49,838 nt of DNA, from IMG/VR virus record IMGVR_UViG_3300037502_001430, positions 1 to 49,838 of that record; one strand, given 5' to 3'. Below are positions 21,687-49,342 of the stretch, piece by piece; position 1 is the stretch's first letter; the number at the start of each line of letters is the position of its first letter. The position numbers and the translations under genes were made by a program. Source of the DNA: a virus. The notes under the pieces were generated by a model. The model was not told the origin of the DNA and made no database searches. It saw only the letters and a program-made list of their open reading frames with translations.

Positions 21687-22247
21687 ATGCCAACAGATAC
21701 AGGAATATGGGAACAGCACGAAGCAAATCAATATCATGATTTTAGTTACAGATTAGCGCAATACATAGGTCAATATTTCCCTAAAAATAAACAGGTTATA
21801 GATTTAGGTTGTGGGCTTGCTACATATTTACGATATTTTCATGATATAGGGTTTACTAATTTACTAGGGGTTGAAGGCACAAAGCTAACTAACTTTGAAT
21901 TTGGCAATGTATTAGTACATGATTTATCTACACCTATTGAGTTAGACAAAAAAGGTAATGTAATTTGTTTAGAAGTAGGGGAGCATATAGCAAAAGAATA
22001 TGAAGATGTGGTAATAGATAACATTTGCAAATTATGTGCTGATGACGGATTTATTATTATGTCGTGGGCTATTCCTACACAAGATGGTATAGGTCATGTA
22101 AATTGCCAGCATAACATTTACATTTTAGATAAGATAGTAAAAAAAGGGTTTAGTCTATTGTTAGATGATACATTAAAGGTAAGAGGAGTTGTGGAAGATA
22201 GGCTAAACTATTTTCGTAACACACTAATGGTATTTAAAAAGCTATGA
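21687..22247 (+). CDS. Class I SAM-dependent methyltransferase
   Basis: 186 residues. Motif I is 'VIDLGCGLATYL' (residues about 36-47), the acidic strand ends 'GVEGTK', and motif IV is 'NVICLEVGEHI', as in many small-molecule and sugar methyltransferases. The N-terminus has 'WEQHEANQYHDFSYRLAQYIGQYF'. It starts two bases after the previous stop and overlaps the next start by 4 bp. Substrate unknown; the adjoining glycosyltransferases suggest capping or trimming of a glycan. Confidence 0.78.
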   Translation: MPTDTGIWEQHEANQYHDFSYRLAQYIGQYFPKNKQVIDLGCGLATYLRYFHDIGFTNLLGVEGTKLTNFEFGNVLVHDLSTPIELDKKGNVICLEVGEHIAKEYEDVVIDNICKLCADDGFIIMSWAIPTQDGIGHVNCQHNIYILDKIVKKGFSLLLDDTLKVRGVVEDRLNYFRNTLMVFKKL

Positions 22248-23761
22248 TAACATTTAGCAAGTTTGGCAACTATGGCAGATTAGGTAATCAGCTATTTCAA
22301 TATGCGTCATTAATTGGTTTAAGTGAAACATTTGGCAAAGATGTTGTTTTACCTAAATGCGATTTTGCGGAATATTTAGAAAACAAACCAAACATTAAAG
22401 ACGTTTCAGATTGTAAATTGGTACAGGAAAAGTACTATCACTATGATGTTAAACAATTTAATGTAGTTGGCAATATTGATATTGTTGGTTGGCTGCAATC
22501 TGAAAAGTATTGGCAACACTGCAAGGATAAAGTAAAAAAAGCATTGCAGTTTAACGCTAAAAAGTGCAATGAATTACAAGGCTATCAACAAAAGTTTTTT
22601 GGTAAACAATCAATAGCAATATCTGTAAGGCGTGGTGATTATGTAGATAATTCTAACTATGCACAGTTAGGTGCTGATTACTACTACCTTGCTATGATGC
22701 AACATATCCCTAATTGGCAAGATTGCAACATACTGATATTTTCAGATGATATAGAGTATTGCAAGGTGCATTTTGAGTGCTTGCCTAATGTGCATTTTAT
22801 TGAGGATTTAACCCCTATGCAACAGTTAATAGTAGGTTCTTGTTGCGACCATTTTATAATTGCAAATAGTACGTTTAGTTGGTGGTTAGCTTATTTTGGA
22901 GAAAAAAAACATAGCAAAGTAATTAGACCTAATTATTTGTTTGAAGGTAATTTGTTAAAGCAAAATGATAGCAAAGATTTTTACCCCGAAAGATGGATTT
23001 GCTATGACCACAAAAAAAGTAAAATAGACCTAAAAGATACTACATTTATTATACCAGTTAGCATAGATAGTACAGACAGAATAGAAAATATCAATACTTG
23101 CATATCATACATTAACACATATTTTGACACTAACATTATTATAGGTGAGCAAGGAACTGATGATATAAAGCATAGTAAGGTAAAATTCAATTATCCTAAA
23201 TTTCACCGCACTAAAATGCTAAATGAAATGACTAAACAAGCTAACACGCCAATAGTCATTAACTATGATGCTGATGTGTTTTTACCACCTTTGCAAATAT
23301 GGTTATCAGTGCATTATATACGCACCAATGTATCTGATTATGTTTATCCTTATGACGGTCAATTTGCAAGGGTTGGCAGAGGATATTACAACCTAATAAA
23401 TGACAAAAAAGATTTAGGCAGACTAAGCAAATACACATTTAAAGGTACGTTTAAAAATGACCCAAACACGCCTAAAAGCGTAGGCGGAGCAATAGCATTT
23501 AACAAACAAGCGTATACCGAAATAGGATTAGAAAATGAAAGGTTTATTAGCTATGCACCCGAAGATATAGAGCGATTTTATAGAATGGCTAATACACGAA
23601 GATTAAAGCGAATAAAAGGCGTGATATATCATCTTGACCATGAAGTAACAATTAATAGTAGTATAGGGCATGCAGACTATGCAAATAATGTAAAGGTATG
23701 CAATGAGTTAACAGGTTTAACCATGAACGAACTATGGAGGCTTATAAGACAGTATCAATAG
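22244..23761 (+). CDS. Two-domain glycosyltransferase: GT11 fucosyltransferase fused to GT-A transferase
   Basis: 505 residues. Residues 1-255 are a GT11 alpha-1,2-fucosyltransferase: 'GRLGNQLFQYA' at 11-21, the GDP-fucose motif 'SVRRGDYV' at 127-134, and 'ANSTFSWWLAYFG' at 206-218. Residues 262-505 are a GT-A fold transferase with DAD (341-343) as the metal-binding DxD, 'KSVGGAIAF', and 'APEDIERFYRMA' as the likely acceptor-site acidic motif. The fusion could add two sugars in sequence. It sits inside the head operon, so it is probably expressed late and acts on virion proteins or on host surface glycan. Confidence 0.82.
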   Translation: MITFSKFGNYGRLGNQLFQYASLIGLSETFGKDVVLPKCDFAEYLENKPNIKDVSDCKLVQEKYYHYDVKQFNVVGNIDIVGWLQSEKYWQHCKDKVKKALQFNAKKCNELQGYQQKFFGKQSIAISVRRGDYVDNSNYAQLGADYYYLAMMQHIPNWQDCNILIFSDDIEYCKVHFECLPNVHFIEDLTPMQQLIVGSCCDHFIIANSTFSWWLAYFGEKKHSKVIRPNYLFEGNLLKQNDSKDFYPERWICYDHKKSKIDLKDTTFIIPVSIDSTDRIENINTCISYINTYFDTNIIIGEQGTDDIKHSKVKFNYPKFHRTKMLNEMTKQANTPIVINYDADVFLPPLQIWLSVHYIRTNVSDYVYPYDGQFARVGRGYYNLINDKKDLGRLSKYTFKGTFKNDPNTPKSVGGAIAFNKQAYTEIGLENERFISYAPEDIERFYRMANTRRLKRIKGVIYHLDHEVTINSSIGHADYANNVKVCNELTGLTMNELWRLIRQYQ

Positions 23762-24324
23762 TAACCCCTACTACGCAAGACAGGCAAGTATTTAATGAGC
23801 GTATTTTTACTATTGCGAAGTTGCAAGATTACCCATACATAGTAGAACATCTATTTGATTACTCAGATAGTATAATAGGAACTAAGCGAAATAAATTAGT
23901 ATCTAAAGCTATTGGGGATATTATAATCCACATGGATAGTGATGATGTGTATGCTACGGATTGGGTAAGTAAATGTGTACAGGCGTTACAAGATAACCCA
24001 ACAGCCGACATAGTAGGACTATCACAATTCTATGCTACAGGTGGCTTTAAATATGTAGGGTCAAACAACAGCAAAACCGTATGGGGTGCTACAATGGCAT
24101 ACCGAAAAACATTTTGGGAAAGTAACAATTTTAAAGACATACAAGTAGGTGAAGATTATTTGTTTTGCAAAAAAGCAAACGTACTTATTAACCCATATAC
24201 AAACGGATTTTTAGCCACTATACATAGTGGAAATACAAGCCCAAAAAATACATCTAACAGCGCATGGGTTAATCTTTGTCGCAAGGATATTCCCGATAGT
24301 CCTTTGGGTACTGCTGAATTATAA
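23734..24324 (+). CDS. GT2-family glycosyltransferase
   Basis: 196 residues. 'VSIVTPTTQDRQVFNERIFTIAKL' is the N-terminal nucleotide-binding strand of GT-A enzymes, and 'IIIHMDSDDVY' (64-73) carries the DxDD metal site. 'VWGATMAYRKTFWE' and 'VGEDYLFCKKA' (E-D) fit the acceptor and catalytic-base region. It is short for GT2, close to a minimal catalytic domain. It overlaps the preceding gene by 28 bp, and its 3' end overlaps the antisense regulator gene by 56 bp. Confidence 0.75.
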   Translation: MEAYKTVSIVTPTTQDRQVFNERIFTIAKLQDYPYIVEHLFDYSDSIIGTKRNKLVSKAIGDIIIHMDSDDVYATDWVSKCVQALQDNPTADIVGLSQFYATGGFKYVGSNNSKTVWGATMAYRKTFWESNNFKDIQVGEDYLFCKKANVLINPYTNGFLATIHSGNTSPKNTSNSAWVNLCRKDIPDSPLGTAEL

Positions 24325-33472: not shown

Positions 33473-34059
33473 CATTCACAGACAACCACCCCAATAACCG
33501 TAATTTCGGGCTAATACTATTTAGTGTGATACTTACCATTGCTGTATGTGCTATAGTGGCGTTAAGCGGCTGCAAATCAACCGAGAAACGCCAAGCCAAG
33601 CTATACGGCAAGTTCGATAAGTTGAAACGCAAAGCAGATGCAGATAGCGTACTAAAGGTAGTGCCTAGTAAATGGAGTTTAGATAATTTCCCTATGAAAT
33701 TAACAGGAACAAAAACAGTCTATTTACCATCTAAGAAAATAATTACACATGATACGGTAATTACTACCAAGACTAAAAATGATACTACTTACATTACTAA
33801 GTACGTTAATAAGTATAGTCATTCGGTAGATACACTACAAACCACCGATACAATAGTAGACAATAGACCATTAACGCAATTACAGACAGATTACAGGGCG
33901 TTAGATGCTAAGTTGATACAAGCTATAACAAAAGCAGAAATAGCCACAGAAACGAAAAATAAACAGCGAGGTAAGATGTTATGGAGTATCGGTTTGAACT
34001 TGCTACTGATAATACTTATTATTGCTTATTTTTTAAGAAAGTTTGGAATATTGAGATAG
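33469..34059 (+). CDS. Candidate unimolecular spanin
   Basis: 196 residues. The N-terminal hydrophobic stretch 13-34 ends in lipobox LSGC with Cys35, giving an outer-membrane lipoprotein after processing. The middle is polar, strand-rich, with 'TKTVYLPSKKIITHDTVITTKTKND' and a helical part. The last 27 residues hold a membrane helix (LWSIGLNLLLIILIIAYF). A lipidated N-terminus plus a C-terminal membrane helix is the architecture of T1 gp11-type u-spanins, which span the periplasm and fuse membranes. It fits the neighbouring holin and endolysin. Family similarity itself is not visible. Confidence 0.6.
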   Translation: MTFTDNHPNNRNFGLILFSVILTIAVCAIVALSGCKSTEKRQAKLYGKFDKLKRKADADSVLKVVPSKWSLDNFPMKLTGTKTVYLPSKKIITHDTVITTKTKNDTTYITKYVNKYSHSVDTLQTTDTIVDNRPLTQLQTDYRALDAKLIQAITKAEIATETKNKQRGKMLWSIGLNLLLIILIIAYFLRKFGILR

Positions 34060-34072
34060 TGTTGTATATTTG
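34042..34072 (+). promoter_or_regulatory. Promoter of the noncoding RNA
   Basis: -33 TTTG (34042-34045), 19-bp spacer, -7 TATATTTG (34065-34072). It is an excellent consensus match lying at the end of the spanin gene. The next long open frame (endolysin, ATG 34291) is 219 bases away, beyond a terminator, so the promoter serves the RNA below. Confidence 0.85.
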
Positions 34073-34078
34073 CAAAAG

Positions 34079-34266
34079 AAATGACGGTCTGCAATCCGTA
34101 CCTTTCGTAATGTTGAACACGTTAACACCTGTCGTAAGATAGTATGCAGATTAAATAAGTTACTACACTCCAATGTAGGTTTAATCATGCCGAAATAATA
34201 TGGGCAATAGGTTGCCTTATGTATGTAACATAGCTTAAAAGCCTACCTTAACTGGTGGGCTTTTTT
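34079..34266 (+). ncRNA. Candidate structured noncoding RNA, about 185 nt
   Basis: Bounded by a consensus promoter and an intrinsic terminator, with no open frame longer than 10 codons. Visible elements are: TCTGCA (34088-34093) pairing with TGCAGA (34145-34150) over about 50 nt; hairpin TGTTGA/TTAACA (34111-34127); GATTAAA (34149-34155) with TTTAATC (34180-34186), enclosing CTACA/TGTAG; GGCAA, tetraloop TAGG, TTGCC (34203-34216); and TATGT/ACATA (34218-34232). An 11-nt direct repeat ACCTKTCGTAA occurs at 34100 and 34127. I recognise no known RNA class. It may act in trans, or be a leader that controls the endolysin gene. Confidence 0.65.
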
Positions 34267-34267
34267 G
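34239..34267 (+). terminator. Terminator of the noncoding RNA
   Basis: Stem AAGCCTACC (34239-34247) with GGTGGGCTT (34254-34262), one wobble, 6-base loop, then TTTTTT. It separates the RNA from the endolysin gene. Confidence 0.82.
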
Positions 34268-34278
34268 TTTTAAATCAC

Positions 34279-34286: not shown

Positions 34287-34290
34287 CACT

Positions 34291-38973: not shown

Positions 38974-39003
38974 TTGTGAATATCATTTTATTTAGTACCT
39001 TTA
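38974..39003 (+). promoter_or_regulatory. Promoter for the Cys-repeat protein
   Basis: -33 TTG (38974-38976), 19-bp spacer, -7 TACCTTTA (38996-39003), 26 bases before the ATG at 39030. Confidence 0.7.
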
Positions 39004-39029
39004 CATCTCACAATCAAAAACAAACCAAC

Positions 39030-39722
39030 ATGACAAAGATTTTCAATTCTTACTCGGAATTCTTAAACCGCACCGATAAATCGGTAAATGGTGTATCTGC
39101 TGAATTTGCAGAACAATACCAAAACTATGTAGAAGATAACGATAGTAATAAAGGTTGTTGGAATTGCCGTTATTGCCGTTATTGCAGTTCTTGCAGTTCT
39201 TGCAGTTCTTGCAGTTCTTGCAGTTCTTGCCGTTATTGCCGTTATTGCAGTTCTTGCAGTTCTTGCAGTGATTGCAGTGATTGCAGTTATTGCAGTTCTT
39301 GCAGTGATTGCAGTGATTGCAGTGATTGCCGTTCTTGCCGTTATTGCAGTTATTGCAGTTCTTGCAGTGATTGCAGTGATTGCAGTTATTTAACATTCAC
39401 TATAAATAACAACGTAAAATTTACACCACCTACCATTGCTAACATTCATCAATCAATACTTGATGTTACATCTGTAGATTGTGCATTAGATATGTCTACA
39501 TGGCACACATGCGACACTACACATTGCCGTGCAGGTTGGGTAGTTGTGTTAGCTGGTGATGCTGGTAAAGAATTGGAAAGTAAAACAGATACTTGTTTTG
39601 CAGCAATGGCAATCTATAACGCTTCAAGTGAAATAAAGGTATCGCCTACAATGTTTTTTGTGAATAATAAAGAAAGCATGAAGGATATAGTAAGATGTGC
39701 CGAATTAGAGAAAAATATTTAA
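39030..39722 (+). CDS. Cys-X-X repeat protein, 230 aa
   Basis: The ATG at 39030 follows its promoter; the frame upstream to 38976 would cross the -7 box. Residues 43-120 are 26 uninterrupted units of Cys-X-X (X mainly S, D, R, Y), so every third residue is Cys. A C-terminal domain has 'WHTCDTTHCRAGWVVVLAGDAG', which I associate with phage proteins that carry other repeat types such as pentapeptides. A regular 3-residue period can build a narrow helix or ladder lined by thiols, and many C-x2-C pairs could bind metals. I know of no function. Confidence 0.8.
   Translation: MTKIFNSYSEFLNRTDKSVNGVSAEFAEQYQNYVEDNDSNKGCWNCRYCRYCSSCSSCSSCSSCSSCRYCRYCSSCSSCSDCSDCSYCSSCSDCSDCSDCRSCRYCSYCSSCSDCSDCSYLTFTINNNVKFTPPTIANIHQSILDVTSVDCALDMSTWHTCDTTHCRAGWVVVLAGDAGKELESKTDTCFAAMAIYNASSEIKVSPTMFFVNNKESMKDIVRCAELEKNI
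39156..39389 (+). repeat. 26 tandem 9-bp units
   Basis: Units of consensus TGCAGTKMT (variants TGCCGTTAT, TGCAGTTCT, TGCAGTGAT), each giving Cys-X-X. Near-identical neighbouring units suggest growth and loss by slippage. Length may vary between isolates. The complementary strand is also open for 117 codons for the same reason. Confidence 0.95.
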
Positions 39723-40397: not shown

Positions 40398-41122
40398 GTA
40401 TCATAACCAACGAACAGCGAATAGGTAATTTCACTAGCAGCGAAATACATAAACTACTTAGCCGAGCAAAAAACGGTAAAGACTTAGGTAAACCAGCACT
40501 TACATACATAGAAGAAAAAAACATTGAGCGTGAAATGGGTATCAGCTTAGGTACAGAGGCTACAGCACGTGCGCTCGATTGGGGCAAACACTGTGAACAA
40601 TTTGCATTTGATAACATTTCACTTGCCTATACCATTACCTCAGATGTAACAGTAGTACACCCTGAATACTCATTTTGGGTAGGTAGTGCAGATGGGTATA
40701 ACACTGATACTGTTTTCGACCTTAAATGCCCTATGACTAGAAAATCATTTTTCGGTTTAGTGGCAGGTGAAAACATCTATAGTATGCGTGATGGGTTTGA
40801 GCGCAATACAGCGCAATACAGCGCACATACTGACGCAGACAAGTACTATTGGCAGTTGGTAAGTAATGCGGCTATTTTGGGCAAAAAATACGCAGAATTG
40901 ATAGTATATATGCCTTATCAGTCGGAACTAGAAATTGTAAAGGCGGCTGCAAAAGATATTTACAATTGGATACATTATGCAGCAGATATTGAACTACCAT
41001 ATTTACCCGATGGCGGCAAGTTCAAAAACATAAATATTATTCGCTTTGAAGTGCCACAAGCCGATATAGATTTACTAACAGCCTCAGTAGTTGAAGCATC
41101 TAAACACCTTATACAGCCATGA
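40394..41122 (+). CDS. YqaJ-like exonuclease (lambda Exo type)
   Basis: 242 residues. The PD-(D/E)xK core reads 'WGKHCEQFAF' (E68), 'SADGYNTDTVFDLKCP' (D100, D109, K111) and 'YYWQLVSNAAILG' (the conserved Q). It degrades one strand of duplex ends to make single strands for the Rad52-like partner. The stop overlaps the next start by 4 bp. Confidence 0.88.
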   Translation: MSIITNEQRIGNFTSSEIHKLLSRAKNGKDLGKPALTYIEEKNIEREMGISLGTEATARALDWGKHCEQFAFDNISLAYTITSDVTVVHPEYSFWVGSADGYNTDTVFDLKCPMTRKSFFGLVAGENIYSMRDGFERNTAQYSAHTDADKYYWQLVSNAAILGKKYAELIVYMPYQSELEIVKAAAKDIYNWIHYAADIELPYLPDGGKFKNINIIRFEVPQADIDLLTASVVEASKHLIQP

Positions 41123-41469
41123 AAATAACCGCAAAATACATAGAAGAACAGTTTTGGTTAGAACGTAAATACAAAGGGGTGCTAACAGTAGAGAAAATAG
41201 AAAAGGTTATTTGTAGCCATTTTGGCGTGAGTATCGAACAAGTAAAGAGTACCACACGACTTTACAATATAACCGAATGTAGGCACTTAATATGGTACTA
41301 TGTGCGAAATACAGGCGCAACATTGCAGACCATTACCAATATGTACAACCGCAAAGACCACACAAGCGTAATACATGCAATAAGCAAGATTAACAACCTG
41401 CTACAGAATGACGAGCAAATGAAGTATAATGTAGCAGCAATAAACACACAATTAAATCTAATAAAATGA
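41119..41469 (+). CDS. Free-standing DnaA domain IV protein
   Basis: 116 residues. 'IEKVICSHFGVSIEQVKSTTR' followed by 'ECRHLIWYYVRNTGATLQTITNMYNRKDHTSVIHAISKINNLL' is the DnaA C-terminal DNA-binding domain with its signature R-K-D-H-T-S-V-I-H-A at residues 78-87. The AAA+ ATPase is absent, so it cannot melt an origin alone. It may mark the phage origin or compete with host DnaA for DnaA boxes. It is embedded between exonuclease and helicase genes. Confidence 0.85.
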   Translation: MKITAKYIEEQFWLERKYKGVLTVEKIEKVICSHFGVSIEQVKSTTRLYNITECRHLIWYYVRNTGATLQTITNMYNRKDHTSVIHAISKINNLLQNDEQMKYNVAAINTQLNLIK

Positions 41470-45955: not shown

Positions 45956-46369
45956 ATGTACAGATACTACATAGGCATTGATACTGGTGTTAACACTGGA
46001 TATGCAGTTTACGACAAACAACTAAAGCAACTTACAGTAGTATCTACAGTTATGATACATCAGGCAATGTTAGCATTGTTAGTTATACATAAAGACGGCT
46101 ACAGCAATGAATGTATGGTTATTGTTGAGGATGCAAGGCAGGTAAGGTTCAACACCGATAAGGCTAAATTACAGGGTGCTGGTAGCGTTAAACGTGATGC
46201 TAAGATGTGGGAGGACTTTTTGAAAGACTTAAAATTTCCGTTTCAGATGGTACGACCTAAAAAGGCAATAACTAAATTTGATGCTGATAAATTTAAGGCT
46301 TTAACAGGTTGGGAAGGTAGGACTAATAGTCACGGTAGAGATGCAGCAATGTTAGTATTTGGCAGATAA
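45956..46369 (+). CDS. RuvC-like Holliday junction resolvase
   Basis: 137 residues. 'GIDTGVNTGYAVYD' (Asp9), 'VIVEDAR' (E58, D59) and 'SHGRDAAMLVF' (H126, D129) reproduce the RNase H-fold catalytic set of RuvC-type endonucleases. It resolves branched DNA before packaging. Followed within 5 bp by a promoter and a structured RNA. Confidence 0.85.
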   Translation: MYRYYIGIDTGVNTGYAVYDKQLKQLTVVSTVMIHQAMLALLVIHKDGYSNECMVIVEDARQVRFNTDKAKLQGAGSVKRDAKMWEDFLKDLKFPFQMVRPKKAITKFDADKFKALTGWEGRTNSHGRDAAMLVFGR

Positions 46370-46373
46370 TAAT

Positions 46374-46405
46374 TTTGGTCAATTCGCTGCAAATCAGTAA
46401 TTTTG
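46374..46405 (+). promoter_or_regulatory. Promoter of the pseudoknotted RNA
   Basis: -33 TTTG (46374-46377), 20-bp spacer, -7 TAATTTTG (46398-46405). A start near 46411 would place the whole structure below inside the transcript. Confidence 0.82.
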
Positions 46406-46411
46406 AGGAAT

Positions 46412-46534
46412 AATATTCAGAGGTAGAAGGCTGAATAATTAACGACATTTTAGCCTAATGGGGCTGCTAGTCGGATGTGTACAAAGGTGCATATCCTCTT
46501 CTACCTAGCACTCCCATTAGGCATTTTTATTTTT
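46412..46534 (+). ncRNA. Candidate pseudoknotted structured RNA
   Basis: Hairpin 1: TATTCAG (46414-46420) with CTGAATA (46431-46437), 10-base loop AGGTAGAAGG. Outer stem: GCCTAATGGG (46453-46462) with CCCATTAGGC (46513-46522), perfect 10 bp, then ATTTTTATTTTT. Hairpin 3: GGATGTGTAC (46473-46482) with GTGCATATCC (46487-46496), loop AAAG. Inner stem TGCTAG (46465-46470) with CTAGCA (46505-46510). CTTCTACCT (46498-46506) complements the hairpin-1 loop (46421-46429), forming a long pseudoknot that overlaps the inner stem by two bases. It has its own promoter and a terminator-like end. It may act as a small RNA or as a leader switch for the replication genes at 46535 onward. I recognise no known class. 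Confidence 0.72.
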
Positions 46535-46777
46535 ATGACAGTTCATAACTGCTTACTAATTGACATTACCCCACATCTTTACGGTTCATTCCTTTGCACA
46601 TTTTGCATAAAGCGTGATAAATTCCATTTACCAATACCTAGTAAAATGGCTGCTACATTAAGTACAGGCGAATACTATAACCTTGACTTCGATATAATGA
46701 CAAATGTATTAGCTGGAGTAGGTAATAACTTTTCATTCAATTTTATTAACCTAGCAAAAGATAATAGCCATGATTAA
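46535..46777 (+). CDS. Hypothetical protein, 80 aa
   Basis: I chose the ATG at 46535; the upstream frame to 46475 runs through the RNA's terminator stem. Starts MTVHNCLLIDITPHLYGSFLC, with 'CTFC' early. No family recognised. It overlaps the replication gene by 8 bp, suggesting coupling. Confidence 0.6.
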   Translation: MTVHNCLLIDITPHLYGSFLCTFCIKRDKFHLPIPSKMAATLSTGEYYNLDFDIMTNVLAGVGNNFSFNFINLAKDNSHD

Positions 46778-47471
46778 AGAATATTTTAGCCACGATTATC
46801 ACCCTATAGCTGATGATAAAATGTTTGCAATGGTATCTGAGTGGGGTGCTGTTGGGTACGGTTTATATTGGCATATTGTAGAGAAATTACACATTTCTGA
46901 AGGCAATGTTATAGTATTTAATGCTTATACTAACCTAGCAATTGCTAACCAAATGAAAGTAGATGCTAAGCAAATAGCAGCATTTATTGAAGATTGTGTA
47001 ACCGTTTTTGAATTGTTTAAACGTGAAAATGATAAGGTGTTTTGTGAGCGTGTTTTTAGAAATATTGGTAAAAGAAAAGAAATTACCGAAGCCCGCAAAG
47101 CCGCTGGTAGCAAGGGCGGAGCAGCAAAAGCTAAGCAAACTGTAGCAATTGCTAAGCAAAACACGACAAATAGAAATGAAAATATAAAAGTAAAAGAAAA
47201 AGAAAAGAAAGATATAATTATTGCCGATGCTAACGCATCTGAAAACTATAAAAAGTTTTTTGATTGGGCATATACGCAAAAAAATGCTATTCGGGTTATG
47301 TCAATGGAAAAACCTTTAACAGCAGATGAATACGATAAACTTTTTACCGAGATAGGGAAAGAAGCTATTTTTCAACAAGTACAGGCAATGGAAAATTATA
47401 AGGATTTGCACAAAAAAAACATATCCGCACATTTAACCATTAAGAACTGGCACAATCGCAACAACAAATGA
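46770..47471 (+). CDS. Replication protein, Lin1244/Lin1753-type N-terminal domain
   Basis: 233 residues. 'YFSHDYHPIADDKMFAMVSEWGAVGYGLYWHIVEKLH' is the diagnostic start of DUF4373 (Lin1244/Lin1753), a DnaD-like winged-helix domain. 'FERVFRNIGKRKEITEARKAAGSKGGAAKA' is the usual basic linker, and the C-terminal 'MSMEKPLTADEYDKLFTEIG' domain follows. It likely loads the helicase at the phage origin. Overlaps the primase-helicase by 4 bp. Confidence 0.85.
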   Translation: MIKEYFSHDYHPIADDKMFAMVSEWGAVGYGLYWHIVEKLHISEGNVIVFNAYTNLAIANQMKVDAKQIAAFIEDCVTVFELFKRENDKVFCERVFRNIGKRKEITEARKAAGSKGGAAKAKQTVAIAKQNTTNRNENIKVKEKEKKDIIIADANASENYKKFFDWAYTQKNAIRVMSMEKPLTADEYDKLFTEIGKEAIFQQVQAMENYKDLHKKNISAHLTIKNWHNRNNK

Positions 47472-49342
47472 TTTCAAAATATTCAGAAGACCAAATAAAA
47501 CAAAGGGCAAGTATAGCCGAAGTAGTAGGGGACTATGTGAAGCTAAAAAAGAGTGGTGCAGACTATGAGGCGTGTTGTCCGTTCCACGACGAAAAAACAC
47601 CTTCGTTCAAAGTTCACACCGCTAAACAGATTTTTAAATGTTTCGGGTGTGGTACAAGCGGTGATAGTGTAGCGTTCGTTATGAAACACCAACAAAAAAC
47701 ATACCCAGAAGCACTCGAAATTTTGGCAAAACGGTACAACATTGCAATAGAATACGACACGCCACAGCCAAAACGTGAGTACAAACGCCCACAGATGCCT
47801 AAATTTGGCTTATCTACTACAGCCCTTACCTATCTATCCTCTCGGAAAATATCGCCCGAAATTTGCCAACAATTTAAAGTATCAACTACAACCGAGTGGA
47901 TGCCAAAAGCAAAATTAGAAGTTGAGTGTATCTGCTTTAACTATTTTCGCAAAGATGAATTGATAAATGTAAAGTACCGAGCGAAAGACAAAGATTTTAA
48001 ATTAGCCAAAGATGCTGAATTGATTTTTTACAATTTGGATAGTCTAAAAAATGCTGAATATGCTATAATTGTTGAGGGTGAAGTTGATGCTTTGAGTGTG
48101 GCTGAATGTTATAAAAATAAGCCTAACAAAAAGAAAACAGGTATCGTTTCAGTTCCAAACGGTGCAAACGTGCAAGGGGCTATGAAGTTGGAGTATTTGG
48201 ATAACTGCTACAAAGAATTTGAACACATAAAGCAGATTATACTATTTACTGACAATGATGAAGCAGGGGTAAAGTTACGTGATGAATTAGGTAGGCGTTT
48301 AGGGTATAACAGGTGTTTTATAGTAGTGAATTATAAAGGCTTTAAAGATGCAAATGAGATACTTTGCAAGGCTGGTGAAGAGGATGTAATGAATGCTATT
48401 GCTACAGCTACAGAGTTTCCAATTAAGGGCGTAGTTGATGTAGAAAACATACATAACGACGTACTGAGTTACTATGTACATGGTTATCCTGACGGCTATA
48501 AAATAGGCATACCTAGCTTAGACGATATGTTTAAAATAATGTTGGGTAATCTTACAATCATTACAGGAATTCCGTCAAGTGGGAAAAGTGAATTTACCGA
48601 CTACATGCTATCCGAATTATCTCGAAATCATGGTTGGCGGTGGGGTATTTGTAGTTTTGAAAATCAACCAGTATCACTACACGTTACTAAAGTAATGGAA
48701 AAGTATGTAGGCAAATCATTTAACTATCGGTATGATGAAAACGAGCGAATGAGTAAGCCCGAATTTGATAGTTCATTTAGTTTTGTATCTGAATATTTTA
48801 CCTTTATAGACATTGAAACGGCAGATATAACCATTGACGGATTGCTTGAAAAGTTTGCCGAATTGGTGTTAAGGCGTGGTATAAATGGCGTACTTATTGA
48901 CCCGTGGAACAGGATTGAAAGTAAAAAGCAAAGGGGGCAAAATGAGGGTGAATATATTAACGAATGTCTTACCAAAATAAAAAACTTTGCGTTAAAATAT
49001 AGGGTGCATGTGTTCTTAATTGCGCACCCTACAAAGATGCCAAAGGTTAACGGCAGGTTTGATATTCCTAACCTTTACAGTATCTCAGGTAGCGCACACT
49101 TTTACAATCAAACCGACAACGGTATTACAGTATATAGAGATATAGACGATACTGTTAGCATATTTATTCAGAAAATACGGTTTAGTTGGTTGGGTAAGAT
49201 TGGCGAATGTAAGTTTACATTTGACATAGGTAGGCGCAAATATATTGCAATTGGTGAGCCTGACCCAATGATTAAAATAATACCCGACAACCCACAAGCA
49301 GGTATAAAACAAATAGTAAAATTCCAAGATATCCCATTTTAA
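47468..49342 (+). CDS. Primase-helicase fusion (gp4/Twinkle-like)
   Basis: 624 residues. CHC2 zinc-binding domain with 'CCPFHDEKTPSF' (C37, H40) and 'FKCFGCG' (C58, C61). TOPRIM region 'AIIVEGEVDALS' (E204) and 'LFTDNDEAG' (D262, D264). DnaB/RecA-like helicase with Walker A 'GIPSSGKS' (367-374) and Walker B 'GVLIDPW' (474-480). It primes and unwinds the phage fork. It lies four genes before the circle's joint. Confidence 0.92.
   Translation: MISKYSEDQIKQRASIAEVVGDYVKLKKSGADYEACCPFHDEKTPSFKVHTAKQIFKCFGCGTSGDSVAFVMKHQQKTYPEALEILAKRYNIAIEYDTPQPKREYKRPQMPKFGLSTTALTYLSSRKISPEICQQFKVSTTTEWMPKAKLEVECICFNYFRKDELINVKYRAKDKDFKLAKDAELIFYNLDSLKNAEYAIIVEGEVDALSVAECYKNKPNKKKTGIVSVPNGANVQGAMKLEYLDNCYKEFEHIKQIILFTDNDEAGVKLRDELGRRLGYNRCFIVVNYKGFKDANEILCKAGEEDVMNAIATATEFPIKGVVDVENIHNDVLSYYVHGYPDGYKIGIPSLDDMFKIMLGNLTIITGIPSSGKSEFTDYMLSELSRNHGWRWGICSFENQPVSLHVTKVMEKYVGKSFNYRYDENERMSKPEFDSSFSFVSEYFTFIDIETADITIDGLLEKFAELVLRRGINGVLIDPWNRIESKKQRGQNEGEYINECLTKIKNFALKYRVHVFLIAHPTKMPKVNGRFDIPNLYSISGSAHFYNQTDNGITVYRDIDDTVSIFIQKIRFSWLGKIGECKFTFDIGRRKYIAIGEPDPMIKIIPDNPQAGIKQIVKFQDIPF

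Follow-up and report, generated by a model that had tools for sequence, protein, structure and literature searches.

Results

A predicted RNA at the head of a replication module

We analyzed one entire viral contig, 49,838 bases long, which we call the window. Its terminase is closest to those of Flavobacterium and Cellulophaga phages, at about 32%, and the Bacteroidota sigma-A motif TTTG-N19-21-TAnnTTTG occurs in it 8 times versus 1.74 expected (0/100 shuffles). Because of these nearest relatives of the terminase and the excess of promoter motifs, the host of the phage is likely a member of the Bacteroidota. One promoter of this type starts 4 bases past the stop codon of a gene for a Holliday-junction-resolvase-like protein (phrog_1770) and heads the following features.

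46374..46405, plus strand: promoter TTTG-N20-TAATTTTG, Bacteroidota sigma-A type (motif excess; kept in relatives)
46410..46530, plus strand: putative discrete transcript, about 120 nt long, its ends placed from the promoter position and the U-tract (covariance-model matches)
46414-46420/46431-46437, plus strand: hairpin P1, UAUUCAG[AGGUAGAAGG]CUGAAUA, loop at 46421-46430 (7/7 pairs kept in 9 sequences)
46423..46430, plus strand: 5′ strand of the pseudoknot, GUAGAAGG, in the P1 loop (covariation)
46453-46462/46513-46522, plus strand: P2, 10 bp (5/10 pairs change both sides; 100% paired)
46466-46470/46505-46509, plus strand: P3, GCUAG/CUAGC, 5 bp (3/5 pairs change both sides; 100% paired)
46473-46482/46487-46496, plus strand: hairpin P4, highly variable in sequence (in MFE folds)
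46497..46504, plus strand: 3′ strand of the pseudoknot, UCUUCUAC (5/8 pairs change both sides; 96.9% of cells paired)
46523..46534, plus strand: U-rich tract AUUUUUAUUUUU, directly before the ATG at 46535
46535..46777, plus strand: 80-aa ORF at the operon head (predicted OB-fold topology; dN/dS 0.07-0.45, purifying selection)
46770..47471, plus strand: Lin1244_N / replication-initiation-like protein
47468..49342, plus strand: DNA primase-helicase, the common marker of the module

A sequence-only reading of 46374-46534 had proposed a pseudoknotted RNA with its own promoter ahead of replication genes. The four stems and the interleaved loop pairing were indeed found in this interval, the overrepresented sigma-A motif precedes them, and the Lin1244_N / primase-helicase module lies downstream. 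The promoter is retained among relatives, in two sequence versions. Since the Bacteroidota -7 box sits at -12 to -5 relative to the start site (PMC9723704), transcription would begin near 46410, four bases ahead of P1. Downstream of the RNA, the window showed no further exact sigma-A motif before the primase, and on the minus strand at the RNA locus the exact motif was absent; other promoters are possible there.

After P1, a 7-bp stem with a 10-nt loop, come a linker and a long hairpin. The nested stems alone gave an MFE of -50.8 kcal/mol (z -4.8; 0/200 shuffles as good). The loop pairing, first read as 9 bp, comprises 8 bp in the window, the last of them G.U, while the ninth pair, G46422-C46505, competes with P3. 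An invariant 2-nt AG precedes the pseudoknot strand in the P1 loop, zero loop bases follow it, and the 3′ strand abuts the 3′ arm of P3 with no gap. Therefore, P1, the pseudoknot, P3 and P2 could stack coaxially into a single rod. The internal loop between P2 and P3 is short (GCU/AMU) and almost invariant. As for the U-rich tract that had been noted behind the structure, it is present, with the correction that, together with P2, it has the shape of an intrinsic terminator, a GC-containing stem followed by a U-tract, and the terminator stem is thus part of the fold. Throughout the window family, 11-12 nt separate this stem from the ATG.

We found no conserved strong antiterminator. Among the conserved pairings, only a 5-bp hairpin, AGCCY..RGGCU, clearly excludes P2, at -5 to -7 kcal/mol versus about -40 for the P2-P4 hairpin. 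A pairing of the purine-rich P1 loop with the U-tract, possible in all sequences, was rejected, as it arises by composition only and shows no double changes. The near-palindromic arms of P2 let the opposite strand fold as well. A search for tRNA or tmRNA returned none.

Compensatory changes in the window family

Relatives were gathered via neighboring proteins and DNA patterns, and nine contigs, including the window, have the RNA before the 80-aa ORF; a covariance model matched the eight further contigs. We scored covariation in P1, P2, P3 and the pseudoknot, leaving out P4, whose alignment is unsure. In a first alignment of eight distinct rows, 99.2% of cells pair and 11 pairs show changes on both sides; shuffled and slid controls were far worse. 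With L179, a more distant contig that brings covariation to P1 (3 pairs with both-side changes), the nine sequences pair in 99.3% of cells, and 16 of the 30 pairs change on both sides, 5 of them in the pseudoknot. A model-free list of all conserved helices yielded P2, the pseudoknot, P1 and P3. Covariation was thus seen in every helix scored, so the refuting condition named by the sequence-only reading, an absence of covariation among related phages, does not hold, and the arrangement, which that reading had judged very unlikely by chance, exceeds chance. Across the family, cells with G.U outnumber those with A.C by 20 to 2, which favors the plus strand as the folded molecule.

Both A.C cells belong to L004 (317-448), the sole member of the family with a broken pseudoknot (2/8 pairs, both A-C); its loop appears to come from one relative and its strand from a different one. 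In L011 (3900-4503), an unrelated ORF replaces the gene before the RNA, and the RNA and the 80-aa ORF remain. The covariance model gave E values of 1e-18 for L179, 4e-4 for L148 and 0.0025 for L180. Several of its matches were discarded: a single one among 395 Bacteroidota genomes (L057), which is the terminator stem only; those on the opposite strand, which come from the near-palindromic P2 arms; and weak internal matches in the window at 34188 and 32675, which are terminators.

The genes behind the RNA

The 80-aa ORF is strongly conserved in its N-terminal half and was found only alongside the window RNA family. It has no family match (Pfam, none at E up to 10), and its genome matches (L036, L037), antisense to a Cas9-like ORF, were dismissed as chance. 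An AlphaFold2 model shows a b-b-b-a-b order at a modest pLDDT of 70.7; Foldseek E values exceed 0.03, and the best match is VIA at Z 8.6, followed by numerous SSB/PriB rows with Z near 7, where values under 9 may reflect a common arrangement. The first ORF behind the RNA varies: it is the 80-aa ORF, another ORF or, in L048, a Lin-like gene whose product is related to the window Lin1244_N protein. The primase-helicase module, by contrast with this variable position, lies downstream of the RNA in every contig that reaches far enough.

Elsewhere in the window, a short protein (41119-41469, plus strand) corresponds to the DnaA C-terminal DNA-binding domain; Cellulophaga phi10:1 likewise has a DnaA-like gene near its primase. 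A second candidate non-coding RNA lies at 34042-34273 (plus strand). A sigma-A motif, TTTG-N19-TATATTTG, at 34042-34072 heads an ORF-free stretch of about 195 nt with an MFE z of -3.4 and a terminator, AGCCUACC..GGUGGGCUUUUUUG, and a peptidase-like ORF follows, with its ATG at 34288. Rfam returned no match for this candidate; in some contigs with related ORFs, the similarity is confined to about 47 nt close to its 3′ end, at 81-83%. A 248-aa ORF at 38976-39722 (plus strand) carries a long Cys/Ser/Asp-rich repeat (CRYCSSCSDCSDC...), with the open frame mirrored on the other strand. ORFs at 22244-24324 (plus strand), between portal-like and protease-like genes, look glycosyltransferase-like.

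The same architecture in unrelated sequences

Contig G429 (IMGVR 3300020160_000949) shares a structural-module gene with the window at 68% and the primase at 41%, and lacks the 80-aa ORF. The equivalent position carries TAATTTAG, then a hairpin, AUUAGUUG[CUGGCA]CAACUGAU, and a strand, GUGCCAGC, within a terminator hairpin ahead of the ATG of another ORF. The covariance model built from the window family alone scores it at E 4e-4. A descriptor scan added L014, with an 11-nt pairing, and L048, with an 8-nt pairing, and a primase-alignment scan yielded a second group of eleven contigs. In this group 2, the hairpins are AAUUCG[GGUCGCAG]CGAAUU or GUUGG[AGUCGAGG]CCAGC, with matching internal strands; P1 and the pseudoknot have 3 double-change pairs each, and every pseudoknot cell pairs. 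As judged from the alignments, the covariation of group 2 is independent of that of the window family.

Applied to 80 primase loci, a strict descriptor located 20 coding-strand sites, each lying 0.7-1.5 kb ahead of the primase, whereas the opposite strand gave 2 and the two reversed-sequence controls 1 each. Since many of the 20 are interrelated, they do not amount to 20 independent events but represent three sequence groups, to which L014, L048, L180 and cultured phages are added. A relaxed descriptor was abandoned because it barely beats reversed sequence, where it found nearly as many sites (33 vs 26), and we relied on the strict version alone. Loops are complementary to their own strands over 6-11 nt (mean 8.4) and to those of mismatched combinations over a mean of 3.95 (0/100,000 permutations attained the observed sum), the descriptor controls being the fairer test because some of the permuted loops had been picked for matching. 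When the loops of the window, L011 and L003 are swapped, 4-5 nt fit versus 9 for their own.

Cultured phages have gaps free of annotated genes before the ORFs that precede the primase: 177 nt in Cellulophaga phi10:1, 189 nt in Nekkels_1 and 149 nt in Tenacibaculum JQ. The phi10:1 gap contains AGUUGC[GUACGACUUAAA]GCGACU, with GUCGUAC adjoining CUCAA; that of JQ contains AGUUAC[AGCAUCCUACUUAAA]GUAACU, with GUAGGAUG adjoining CUCAA; and that of Nekkels_1 contains GUCUAAC, with GUUAGAC adjoining CUACA, and no clear P1. In all three, the second strand lies in a terminator-like hairpin. In the Nekkels_1 version (L261, 2922-3110), a second loop pairing, AUUGGAA/UUCCAAU, is possible besides GUCUAAC/GUUAGAC. 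As in the window, the pseudoknot strand abuts P3 in L048, phi10:1, JQ and Nekkels_1. No sequence matches to the RNA were found in named phages or plasmids. Taken at the level of sequence, one predicted architecture recurs before the primase modules of Bacteroidota-type phages despite nearly complete sequence turnover. Its presence in Cellulophaga and Tenacibaculum phages that are in culture makes the element amenable to direct testing.

Discussion

Rfam 15 returned no family at gathering score for the window or for nine loci with other members, in agreement with the initial impression that the RNA matches no known class; at relaxed thresholds, the best sub-threshold matches of the window were chance-like. 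We found no description of this RNA in the open-access literature, where absence is no proof. In the pistol ribozyme, a 5′ hairpin loop pseudoknots into a downstream stem, as it does in the window RNA, with a different order of elements; the model search, in which no Rfam model matched the window RNA, also separates the two.

Other known systems share parts of the arrangement. Type III toxin-antitoxin loci (ToxIN) likewise combine a promoter, a pseudoknotted RNA, a terminator hairpin and an ORF, but their antitoxin is a tandem array and is accompanied by the ToxN nuclease (PMC8860590), whereas the window has a single unit, with no tandem repeats at 46300-46800 (score 30). A ToxN search of the window record came back empty, and its control gave no signal either. 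STAXI motifs, too, are pseudoknotted and neighbor genes of DNA-binding proteins, SSB among them, but consist of 2-3 tandem pseudoknots (PMC2864571), and the window RNA has no Rfam match.

Closer parallels come from replication-gene leaders. In the rep leaders of IncI-alpha (ColIb-P9) and IncL/M plasmids (cited in PMC10724649), an upstream hairpin loop pairs with a strand immediately ahead of the replication gene, and the loop letters diversify among relatives, as in the window RNA, which similarly stands before a replication initiator (Lin1244_N / primase module). These leaders need an antisense RNA from the opposite strand and act on translation (cited in PMC10724649); at the window locus, no exact antisense sigma-A motif was found. 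The pT181-type rep attenuator likewise has an intrinsic terminator in a replication-gene leader, but its switch is run by a countertranscript (cited in PMC10724649), and none is seen in the window. The leader of gene 32 in T4, T2 and RB69 also combines a phage replication gene, a coaxially stacked pseudoknot and an A/U-rich unstructured stretch between the pseudoknot and the start codon (PMC3014915, PMC535899); a 2010 review considered T4 gene 32 possibly the sole viral pseudoknot in translation autoregulation (PMC3014915). As a further parallel, the protein behind the window RNA is predicted to be OB-like. The T4 pseudoknot, however, is H-type, about 28 nt, and has no terminator (PMC3014915, PMC535899), whereas in the window the pseudoknot strand is inside the terminator hairpin and the next gene varies among phages. 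By analogy, the window RNA appears most like pseudoknotted replication leaders such as those of T4 gene 32 and ColIb-P9 repZ, minus their tested regulators.

The terminator near the start codon, the promoter just upstream and the lack of another exact motif before the primase suggest a gate for the replication operon, and we tentatively favor the reading that the RNA is a promoter-leader-terminator element acting in cis. The host sigma-A promoter, as read from the sequence, would start transcription just ahead of P1, and the plus-strand RNA would fold into P1, P2, P3 and the pseudoknot between loop and internal strand, for which the compensatory changes argue. The pseudoknot may form early during transcription, stack end to end on P3 and lock a terminator-competent shape. 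The long P2/P3 stem and its U's would serve as the intrinsic terminator, placed 11-12 nt ahead of the first start codon, such that most transcripts would stop as a stable RNA of about 120 nt, and read-through alone, from its own promoter or from upstream genes, would supply the replisome-organizer and primase genes. Candidate relievers of termination are a phage protein, the DNA replication state and an antiterminator. The persistence of the primase-helicase module behind a changing first ORF speaks for this reading; the lack of a conserved strong antiterminator and the two mismatched pseudoknot pairs of L004 speak against it. There is no indication of metabolite sensing, since most helix letters turn over and there is no large conserved unpaired core.

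The main rival, possible though less probable, is a stable small RNA acting in trans, by binding a protein or as a decoy, whose gene happens to head the module, with the genes behind it expressed by read-through from upstream. The promoter and terminator hug the fold, leaving little of the predicted transcript unstructured, as in a stand-alone sRNA gene; the ORF behind it is interchangeable; and Bacteroides has intra-operonic and intergenic sRNAs with their own start and intrinsic terminator (PMC7366714). Nevertheless, the RNA always lies directly before the start of an ORF ahead of the primase module and nowhere else in the searched contigs, its antisense complementarity within the phage is not above shuffles, and the pairing loop is already engaged within its own molecule. 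Its location before the replication module in several versions of unrelated sequence favors a leader or an operon-linked role.

The P1 loop of the released RNA might instead pair with the matching strand of other nascent leaders and lower operon output as genomes accumulate, in the manner of plasmid loop-loop systems, a control of copy number or timing that we regard as improbable. The site before replication genes parallels plasmid rep leaders, and the loops of close relatives no longer cross-fit, as would be expected of private specificities, but neutral compensatory drift of an intramolecular helix gives the same pattern. The 2-nt and 0-nt links and the stacking on P3 favor an intramolecular pseudoknot, and no antisense sigma-A motif was found at the locus. 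An extended form of this idea, to which we give similarly little credence, is that a widespread, uncatalogued class of phage RNA uses a private, rapidly re-invented pairing of loop and strand to gate the replication operon and to sense genome copy or timing between RNA copies, like plasmid copy-number RNAs.

Autogenous control, in which the pseudoknot would be bound by the product of the 80-aa ORF, in analogy to T4 gp32 and its leader, was initially favored, on the OB-like topology of the model and the co-occurrence of RNA and ORF in 9/9 contigs of the window family. It was weakened by the finding of phages that have this RNA architecture ahead of unrelated first ORFs and, with the modest pLDDT, the Foldseek E values and the Z scores cited above, now seems very unlikely. 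Least probable is a chance fold or a DNA-level element such as an origin hairpin, which the adjoining replication genes and the folding of the opposite strand might suggest, but which fits poorly with the compensatory changes in P1, P2, P3 and the pseudoknot, the G.U to A.C ratio and the correctly placed promoter and U-tract.

On the sequence evidence, the RNA comes close to a new RNA class, and it would count as one if it proves to act on its own. Given its near-complete sequence turnover, sequence-based catalogues would miss it. Structured leaders that control the start of replication are well known in plasmids and rare in phages, and the tentatively favored cis-acting leader could show how Bacteroidota-type phages time their replication.
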